Origin: a virus
Strand: one strand, 5' to 3'
DNA: 45,122 bases
IMG/VR virus record: IMGVR_UViG_3300046462_000711
Coordinates: 1 to 45,122 of that record
Shown here: piece by piece, positions 301-43,510 of the stretch
Layout of the letters: each line of letters starts with the position of its first letter
Numbering within the stretch: position 1 is the first letter of the stretch
The notes under the pieces: model-generated
What the model saw: the letters and a program-made list of their open reading frames with translations, nothing else
Told to the model about the DNA's origin: nothing
Databases searched by the model: none
Program-made: the position numbers and the translations under genes

Positions 301-419
301 GGAAGCTCTACTACGAACCATTTCCCTGAGAGTGAAGTTGCCGGACCGGCTTTCCGCTGTTCGGGCAGCCTAGAAAGAAAAGCGAAGCCCGAAAAATTGC
401 CAATGAGTAAATTTCGGCT

Positions 420-41272: not shown

Positions 41273-41905
41273 ATGAAGCCGATACCGACAAAGCTGCCTC
41301 TCCCCCTGGCTGATGAGCTTCGCAGTCTGTCAGAAAGCGAAGCTGCAGCAGGTGGTCCACGGGCTGGCCCTCCGCTCAGCAGCAACGAAATGCGAAGCCC
41401 ACGCGGTGGAATTGCACAGCTGTCCCTGCCTCTGTTGCACCACGACGATGCAGCCGGCCAGGGGGTGGGGGGTAGGCGTGAGACTTCGACCCCGACCCGG
41501 CGGGGGGGAGGGTACCCAGATAACTGCACTGTTTTTGAACTTTCGGGAGGGGTAAAAAAAATCGGCGCGGATCCGCGCATGGAAGAGCTGGCGGCGATGG
41601 GACTACCGGATTACTGGCTCAAGGTCGCTGAATACCTTGGATTCGATGCGTTCCTGGGCATGTGGCGGATTCTGGATGCCAACAGAGATTGCATTCCGCA
41701 ATTCAGCGGCTCCAATTCGATGGCGCCCACGCTACGCACCTATTCGAACTACCTCCGGTTTCAAAAAAACCGGTTTGTCGAGACCCTGGCCGCCCAAGGC
41801 GTCGGGCCACAAGAAATACAGCGGCGAGTGCAGACACAGTTATGTGAATCCATCTCAATAACTCACATTCAACGCATCACCCAAAGACATAGAATCAAGC
41901 GATGA
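41273..41905 (+). CDS. Mor-like regulator upstream of the serine recombinase
   Basis: 210 residues from ATG 41273; a shorter start at ATG 41579 would give 108 residues. Only the part after 41579 looks conserved: ELAAMGLPDYWLKVAEYLG, then LRTYSNYLRFQKNRFVETLAAQG and a helix-turn-helix (PQEIQRRVQTQL and ITHIQRITQ). This resembles the C-terminal HTH of Mor/C-type middle and late activators (family pattern; weak). The first half is Gly/Pro-rich, over runs of G7 and A8. Its stop overlaps the recombinase ATG, so the pair is translationally coupled. Confidence 0.65.
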   Translation: MKPIPTKLPLPLADELRSLSESEAAAGGPRAGPPLSSNEMRSPRGGIAQLSLPLLHHDDAAGQGVGGRRETSTPTRRGGGYPDNCTVFELSGGVKKIGADPRMEELAAMGLPDYWLKVAEYLGFDAFLGMWRILDANRDCIPQFSGSNSMAPTLRTYSNYLRFQKNRFVETLAAQGVGPQEIQRRVQTQLCESISITHIQRITQRHRIKR

Positions 41906-43476
41906 CCCAAAAAACTGCCATTATTTATTTACGCGTCAGCTCGGTGCAGCAAGCACGAAAAGAGCTACCCGTCGAAAGCCAGCTGCAGTATGCCCAAGGG
42001 AAAGCCAAAGAGCTTGGAGCCGTTGTAGTGGCGATATTTACCGACAATGGCATCTCCGGCCGTTCGGACAAGCGTGTGGACTTCCAGGAAGCGATCGCAT
42101 ATTGCGAACTGAACAAGCCCGATTACTTTATAGCCTGGGACACCGCGCGCTTCGCCCGCAACAGGATCGATGCTGCGCTGTACAAGCGCGAGCTGCGCAA
42201 GCACGGGACTGACGTTGTGTATGTGTCGATGTCGATCGATACAAAAACGGATGAGGGCTGGTTTGTCGAGGCCCTGCTGGAGGTGATGGACGAGAGCACC
42301 AGCAGGCGAATCAGCAAGGACACCAAGCGGAGCATGATGAAAAACGCAGAGGAAGGGTATTTCAATGGTGGCCGCGCGCCGTTCGGTTACAAGACCGTGG
42401 CAGACGGTAACCGCAAGCGGGTCGACGTGCTGGAATCGGAGGCGGTGATCGTGCGCGAGATTTTTGCATTGTGTCAGCGTGGTACAGGTGCGCAATCGAT
42501 CGCCGTCAGCATGAACAACAGCGGGCATACAAATCGTGGTCGCCCATGGGCCAAATCGACGATTATCAATCTGCTGAAAAATCATGCATACGCTGGTTAC
42601 ACGATTTTCAATCGTCGCAAGCACCACAGTAAGACGTTGGAGCCAGAGGCGAACTGGATCAGGACTAAGAGCCGGCCGGCCATCATCGATGAGGCAGTTT
42701 TTATGCAGATCCAGCAGCAAATCACGGCACGCGCGCCAGTGCTTGACGCGGGAAGCCCGAAGAGTGGTCACTTATTCACCGGGCTACTGAAGTGCGGCAC
42801 CTGTGAGGGGGCGATGCACATCGAGAGCGCCACCGGCCGCAGCAAGCAGTATTTTTATTATCGATGTGGTGAGGCGAAGCGCGGCGGTAGCTGCGTGGGG
42901 CGACGTATAAGCGCGCCGGCTATCGATGAATTTGTCGCGCAGACGATCCTAAACAAGATACTGACGGCCGAAAGGGTCAGCATTATCATCCGCGAGATCG
43001 AAAAAGCGACCGGCAACTGGTGGAAGGATCGCGAGCAACGTCGCGAAACCATCGTTGCCGAGATCCGCGGCGCCGAGAAGAAACGCAGAAACTTATTCAG
43101 TGTGCTGGAGCTGCACGGCAAGGAAGCGCCGAACCTGGGAGACATCACATTGCGGCTGCGCGAACTCAAGGAACAGATTGACGTCCTGGAGCGCGACCTG
43201 GTGGCGTTGGAGTCGGCGTCCGACCCGGATCTAGATATAAATCAGGAGGAGATTGTGCAGGCCGCAAACGTGATCCGGACGATGGTGATCAACTGTGACG
43301 ACCCGCGAACGGTTCGCACTTTTTTCGGTACGTTTGTGAGTAAGGTTGTGCTTGAGGCGGCTCAGATCGCTATACACTACGACCCTGCCAAGATTATGAA
43401 CCACGGAATTTCCGTGGTTCATAATAAGAATAGGTGGCTCCCCGACCTGGACTCGAACCAGGGACCTGCGGATTAA
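41902..43476 (+). CDS. int: large serine recombinase, probable integrase
   Basis: 524 residues. Resolvase-type catalytic domain with YLRVSS (S13 the likely nucleophile), DNGISGRSDKR and ARFARNRID. A recombinase domain (GRAPFGYKT, then NAYAGYTIFNRRK-like) and a zinc ribbon (KCGTCEG, YRCGEAKRGGSC) follow, then a coiled coil ending in TFFGTFVSKV. It abuts attR, as phage integrases do. The last 10 codons, DLDSNQGPAD, are antisense tRNA-Asn sequence, so the coding frame crosses the attachment site. On excision the tail would be replaced (see findings). Confidence 0.92.
   Translation: MTQKTAIIYLRVSSVQQARKELPVESQLQYAQGKAKELGAVVVAIFTDNGISGRSDKRVDFQEAIAYCELNKPDYFIAWDTARFARNRIDAALYKRELRKHGTDVVYVSMSIDTKTDEGWFVEALLEVMDESTSRRISKDTKRSMMKNAEEGYFNGGRAPFGYKTVADGNRKRVDVLESEAVIVREIFALCQRGTGAQSIAVSMNNSGHTNRGRPWAKSTIINLLKNHAYAGYTIFNRRKHHSKTLEPEANWIRTKSRPAIIDEAVFMQIQQQITARAPVLDAGSPKSGHLFTGLLKCGTCEGAMHIESATGRSKQYFYYRCGEAKRGGSCVGRRISAPAIDEFVAQTILNKILTAERVSIIIREIEKATGNWWKDREQRRETIVAEIRGAEKKRRNLFSVLELHGKEAPNLGDITLRLRELKEQIDVLERDLVALESASDPDLDINQEEIVQAANVIRTMVINCDDPRTVRTFFGTFVSKVVLEAAQIAIHYDPAKIMNHGISVVHNKNRWLPDLDSNQGPAD
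43393..43425. repeat. 16-bp perfect inverted repeat beside attR
   Basis: ATTATGAACCACGGAA, one T, then TTCCGTGGTTCATAAT. It lies inside the 3' end of the serine recombinase and 9 bp from the att core. No U tract on either strand. May be an arm-type binding site or, as RNA, the 3' end of tRNA transcripts. Confidence 0.8.
43435..43445. other. attR: attR core within tRNA-Asn
   Basis: TGGCTCCCCGA: the complement of the acceptor 3' strand, discriminator and CCA. Same 11 bp as at 290-300. Confidence 0.85.
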
Positions 43477-43510
43477 CAGTCCGTCGCTCTACCAACTGAG
43501 CTATCAGGGA
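43435..43510 (-). tRNA. tRNA-Asn(GUU)
   Basis: 76 nt on the minus strand with encoded CCA. Acceptor TCCCTGA pairs with TCGGGGA (one G-U). The D arm contains AGCTCAGTTGGTAGAGC, the anticodon loop is CTGTTAA with anticodon GTT, and the T arm contains GGTTCGAGTCC. The 3' 11 nt are the prophage att core, so integration leaves the tRNA intact. Confidence 0.97.

Follow-up and report, generated by a model that had tools for sequence, protein, structure and literature searches.

What happens to a recombinase when the site at which it acts lies within its own gene, and does the part of the protein that is exchanged upon integration matter? These questions are raised by the two ends of the 45,122-nucleotide stretch of viral DNA analysed here (hereafter, the window), which contains a complete-looking 43-kb contractile-tailed prophage with genes for terminase, portal/head morphogenesis, protease, sheath, baseplate hub and primase, flanked by chromosome at both ends. 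The longest word common to the two ends is the 11-bp sequence TGGCTCCCCGA, which is present as exact copies at 290-300 (attL core, plus strand) and 43435-43445 (attR core, plus strand) and nowhere else in the window. On the opposite strand, the right core represents the last 11 nt, i.e. the 3' end, of a tRNA-Asn(GTT) gene (43435-43510, minus strand). This gene is the attB target and is kept whole after integration, and the corresponding empty site, in which left flank, core and tRNA are joined, is found uninterrupted in genome G179 (157/157 identical). The attL core of Paucimonas deviates at one position (TGGCTCCCTGA), which places the crossover within the first eight core bases. At 253-282, on the strand of the tRNA, the window has a GC-rich hairpin with a T-run (GGGGTTGCATGCAAATGCAGCCCC) that resembles the native tRNA-Asn terminator; the prophage separates this hairpin from the tRNA gene by about 43 kb.

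The integrase gene (41902-43476, plus strand) reads through the right core as W-L-P-(D), and its stop codon falls within the tRNA gene, antisense to it. Its product in the prophage has 524 residues, ends in NRWLPDLDSNQGPAD and is a large serine integrase: resolvase, recombinase and zinc-ribbon domains are present (PF00239, PF07508 and PF13408, all above cut-off), the catalytic Ser13 is invariant across the integrase alignments, long helices at residues 356-437 of the AlphaFold model represent the coiled coil, and the best fold matches in the PDB are the large serine integrases of phiC31, Bxb1, SPbeta and LI, which have the same domain order. The last codons of this prophage form (43446-43476, plus strand; LDSNQGPAD and the stop) are host-derived. 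If 43445 is instead joined to 301, the frame stays intact and gives a phage form of 538 residues, which ends in EEALLRTISLRVKLPDRLSAVRAA with a TAG at 371-373 (the joined C-terminus is written WLPEEALLRTISLRVKLPDRLSAVRAA). In other words, integration exchanges the conserved last 24 residues of the phage form for 10 unrelated residues (DLDSNQGPAD) and leaves the detached 3' end of the gene (301-373, plus strand) orphaned at attL. The preliminary description of this DNA had deduced this exchange, and the coordinates of the core, its position inside the integrase frame, the two protein lengths, the continuity of the frame and the stop codon were all correct.

Relatives, collected by homology searches with genome G003 as the centre, occur in two states. 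Prophages at tRNA-Asn (L002-L005, L029, L030 and L032-L034) encode integrases that end in DLDSNQGPAD or close variants of it, while in unintegrated contigs carrying attP (L001, L006 and L040-L043), the integrase frame either continues to the stop predicted for the window or stays open into a similar tail. L001, L006 and L041 share the stop position of the window, and L041, the closest natural attP form, ends in NRWLPEQALLRTISLKIKLPDRLSASRAA. Further attP sequences were sought by a pattern that combined the core with the codons of the right arm; because this pattern required an LLRT-like motif, conservation of LLRT in that set is by construction, while that of the residues after LLRT is not. 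The attP forms found in this way have full integrases upstream with 31-50% identity. Altogether, the frame stays open into the tail in some 20 additional attP forms and in 13 attL halves. The attL halves in bacterial genomes, which were found by searching with the core alone, carry detached tails ending, for instance, in ...FIRKAA, ...LRRLAA and ...FWKKAA, and Microcystis phage yong1, with 37% identity, still has NWRPEGAMLRTIGASWSPFSQSAS. A single core is present in 16/18 attP-form records (G1055 and G1065 carry more than one), and no tRNA was found at the attP-form loci. Thus, the layout persists down to about 31% integrase identity, with an uninterrupted frame to either side of the core. Two observations had been named beforehand as contradicting the exchange, an attP with a different junction and related phages whose protein stops short of the core. 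Among the relatives, there is no native attP with a different junction, and in the set found by homology only, all close relatives reach or cross the core, L031 in another frame. The natural attP sequences, the empty site and the conservation of the phage-form tail all back the position of attP within the integrase frame: integration swaps the C-terminus of the integrase, and this swap is conserved.

The attP itself also bears on the deduced junction. The 53-bp attP was compared across 28 sequences, natural or deduced; its inverted arms (GGTTCATAGTAAG and CTTACTNCGAACC) are symmetric about the core centre at positions +/-20-24 in 23-25/28 and at positions +/-12-18 in 14-22/28; it is thus a short site (about 50 bp) with inverted arms of the kind used by serine integrases. 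In the window, the left (int-side) arm GGTTCATAATAAG is at 43416-43428 and the right arm TCTACTACGAACC, now at attL, is at 307-319 (both plus strand), where it codes for the LLRT of the phage-form tail. Because the two arms are symmetric only once the two prophage ends are joined, their symmetry lends independent support to the deduced attP. The left arm is also the right half of a perfect inverted repeat with 16-bp arms, read directly at 43393-43425 within the integrase coding sequence, the left half of which is an inverted copy of the arm. It is still an inverted repeat in L001-L004, which suggests, from sequence, a third half-site for binding of the integrase or RDF, or an RNA hairpin.

Is the detached tail a coding segment? 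The preliminary description had conceded that 24 codons may be open by chance. Such a run is not rare in itself, and a non-coding stretch after the core would then account for the phage-form tail. However, L001, L006 and L041 share the stop position, and diverged members keep their ends. Moreover, in a codon test on the four closest forms, restricted to codons 13-27 and thus to the part beyond the 53-bp attP, 13 third, seven first and four second codon positions vary, and pN/pS is 0.27 in the integrase frame compared to 1.2 and 1.9 in the alternative frames (0/2000 column shuffles gave a value as low). Together with the natural attP copies, the codon test and the conserved C-termini rule out a chance frame, to which we assign next to no probability. 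Alternatively, the tail could be conserved merely as attP DNA. This is true for the motifs VHSK and LLRT, which are accounted for by the attP arms, as WLP is by the core; it does not account for the following LxVxLP...R-A-A, and we reject it beyond +/-26 bp, where it is mostly third positions that vary. Judged by these codon patterns, the phage-form tail is a protein segment under selection.

A predicted structure suggests what this segment contributes. AlphaFold models were made for the natural attP form L001, with a 20-row alignment, and for the window prophage form. In the attP form, residues 500-519, i.e. the attP-encoded part, make up a disordered loop, which is followed by a strand at 522-527 (pLDDT about 84) and a flexible end. 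By contrast, residues 500-524 of the prophage form are predicted to be wholly disordered. Because the attP-encoded residues coincide with the modelled loop, the phage seems to accommodate its recombination site in a loop of the very enzyme that acts there. LxVxLP, a hydrophobic pattern, is found repeatedly in the tails. One explanation is, therefore, that loss of a structural or regulatory final beta-strand alters the activity or site preference of the integrase rather than its half-life, much as integration of phage Mx8 changes the end of its integrase together with its recombination behaviour (PMC6070905). The confident strand, found in the attP form only, and its recurrent hydrophobic pattern argue for this explanation; however, it leaves unexplained the frequent AA after basic residues beyond the strand, and the short tails of L065, L081 and L086 hardly extend past the strand. 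We regard it as a serious second choice with a probability well short of even.

The residues beyond the strand show a bias of their own. Among 34 non-redundant tails, compared to a background of 220 ORFs from the same loci, 26/34 end in A (28/220 in the background), 19/34 in AA (11/220) and 25/34 in a basic residue plus A (17/220). Among other serine recombinases from the same order, 9/26 end in A and 4/26 in AA; relative to these, the excess in the tails is smaller (p about 0.001) and, after dropping groups and the tRNA-tailed recombinases, amounts to p 0.017 for A and 0.006 for AA. Tails without AA occur in Paucimonas (...LH), Undibacterium (...LQ), L081 (...NL), L086 (...SM) and yong1 (...SAS). 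In L043, L044, L046, L071 and L074, a downstream start codon adjoins or overlaps the end of the integrase frame, where the DNA itself may be constrained. We rejected the idea that -AA is a mere by-product of such a start signal because no start codon is found at that position in the window, L001, L041 or Herminiimonas. By sequence alone, ends such as ...VRAA in the window, ...RKVA in L075 and ...RLAA in G368 resemble ClpX C-motifs, for which ends in LAA, NAA and EAA (C-motif-1) and RAKKVA and HARKVA (C-motif-2) have been tabulated (PMC9775585). Terminal Ala-Ala is the main determinant for ClpXP, and on GFP, a tag of five residues is enough (PMC7652416); by comparison with the latter work, the predicted flexible tail of the phage form would be long enough for gripping. 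Given how often other serine recombinases of the order end in A, the -AA motif as a degron is no more than suggestive, and selection may act on the strand instead, with -AA being secondary.

Based on these data, we suggest a model in which integration strips the phage-form integrase of two C-terminal elements, a proteolysis tag and a terminal strand. We put the probability of this reading at about 50%. The attP of this phage family is embedded in the 3' end of the large serine integrase gene itself. When the phage is free, this gene runs through attP into the 24-codon tail, which is predicted to fold as the last beta-strand of the C-terminal region followed by about 10 flexible residues with a basic, Ala-Ala-type C-terminus akin to the C-motif-1 and -2 degrons of ClpX. 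When the phage integrates into the 3' end of tRNA-Asn, the gene is cut at the core and the tail is left orphaned at attL, and the prophage integrase gains the host-encoded end LDSNQGPAD, which is predicted to be unstructured; excision gives the tail back. Most likely, the phage form would be short-lived or otherwise restrained, resulting in less integrase activity and a lower lysogeny frequency during infection. By contrast, the prophage form, free of the signal, would persist to excise together with the directionality factor upon induction. The shift in the integration/excision balance that had been suggested for this locus is plausible. The data establish the swap, the conservation of its coding sequence, the anatomy of attP and the chemistry that the C-termini have in common. 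Proteolysis, the role of the strand and the effects on lysogeny and excision are what we infer from the sequences and the predicted structure, and tag removal and an altered activity may hold together. A more far-reaching reading is integration-dependent stabilisation of a serine integrase, which would serve as a built-in memory of the integration state and would hold across the family, in Burkholderiales and environmental phages; we hold this reading a little less firmly than the model itself.

A simpler explanation is economy. Here, attP would overlap the end of the gene, and the tail would be required only prior to integration, for folding or function. The prophage end would then be tolerated, neutral and non-regulatory. 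The end of the prophage form is indeed dictated by the tRNA, and unrelated serine recombinases (L124, L125, L128, L138, L139 and L140) likewise appear to end within tRNA genes, in antisense orientation, an overlap that is probably common. However, that the arrangement is kept to about 31% identity with an open frame on both core sides makes a neutral by-product unlikely.

The tag-removal model combines features that are known separately. Mx8 Int is a tyrosine recombinase. As in the window, attP of Mx8 (and Mx9) is inside the phage integrase gene; integration provides this gene with a different 3' end and changes how the integrase behaves (PMC6070905). The likeness is one of layout; the system described here combines a large serine recombinase with symmetric arms in a 53-bp attP and with a conserved -AA tail. 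In integration-dependent immunity (BPs, Brujita, Charlie, and M. abscessus and Bifidobacterium prophages), attP is likewise in a gene near its 3' end, attB is in a tRNA gene and integration removes an ssrA-like -AA tag from the viral form (PMC9262239, PMC8092301, PMC6109161). For mycobacteriophage repressors, this removal of an -LAA tag is established, and the integrases of the same phages are also -AA tagged (PMC9262239, PMC8092301). However, in those phages the repressor is split and the end of the tyrosine integrase is unaltered, whereas here attP is within the integrase gene rather than a repressor gene, and it is the serine integrase itself that is split and loses an end that, by sequence, is tag-like. 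The streptococcal element IME_Spy2096_SNF2 also has a serine integrase with the recombination site within its own gene; it is a mobilizable element in the protein gene snf2, and the passage describing it mentions neither tail conservation nor a tag (PMC5357655). SSV-type archaeal integrases also have the target site within the integrase gene (PMC8371274), but are tyrosine recombinases referred to as suicidal, while the integrase gene described here remains whole and is changed in its last residues only. Finally, the serine integrases of Bxb1 and M. abscessus prophages use 5-8 bp cores in protein genes (PMC8092301), as opposed to the 11-bp core at the 3' end of tRNA-Asn. Thus, attP inside an integrase gene is already known from Mx8, SSV and one streptococcal serine element (PMC5357655). 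In the literature searched, which covered few subscription papers, we found no description of a serine integrase losing its own tag, and a serine integrase that, by integrating, sheds its own conserved coding tail with a degron-like end appears to be new.

If the model is correct, it would unite two switches, attP in the integrase gene as in Mx8 and an integration-removed degradation tag as in the BPs repressor, in serine integrases, which are major tools in genome engineering. A recombinase with its stability or activity set by its own product would help to explain lysogeny frequency and the readiness to excise, and suggests a design for self-limiting integrases. It also follows that integrases taken from prophage annotations, with DLDSNQGPAD-like ends, differ from the integrating form, which matters for mining genomes.

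Several variants of the arrangement were observed. In genome G676 (L031/L055 and L054), the left attP arm is missing from the end of the integrase gene and the core is entered in a different frame, but the tail at the attL side is intact (WLPDLVLQRTTKLEIPLPDRFWKKAA); from its sequence, this element is possibly a locked-in prophage. In Undibacterium (L022, genome G004), the cores are just 8.8 kb apart, and this spacing points to a satellite or remnant far smaller than such a phage. Integrase relatives with 34-43% identity are in tRNA-His genes (L035, 3034-3109; L045, 11552-11628), and their prophage form ends at once in ...WGG; for neither the tRNA-His relative G386 nor G395 was an attL partner found in the stretches examined. 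The distant Burkholderiales recombinases L124, L125, L128, L138, L139 and L140 have ends such as FEPTTFGL, FEPVTFRL, DSNPRPPGS and DLGSNQGPTD, which resemble antisense readings of tRNA genes, and attachment sites inside serine integrase genes or antisense tRNA read-out look common in this order. Lastly, in L042, L043, L046, L071 and L074, the integrase stop abuts or overlaps a small downstream frame with a Cys-rich motif (of the type LNFHCQACGARFES or VNFKCSCGAQFEA) that is reminiscent of phage Mu Com.
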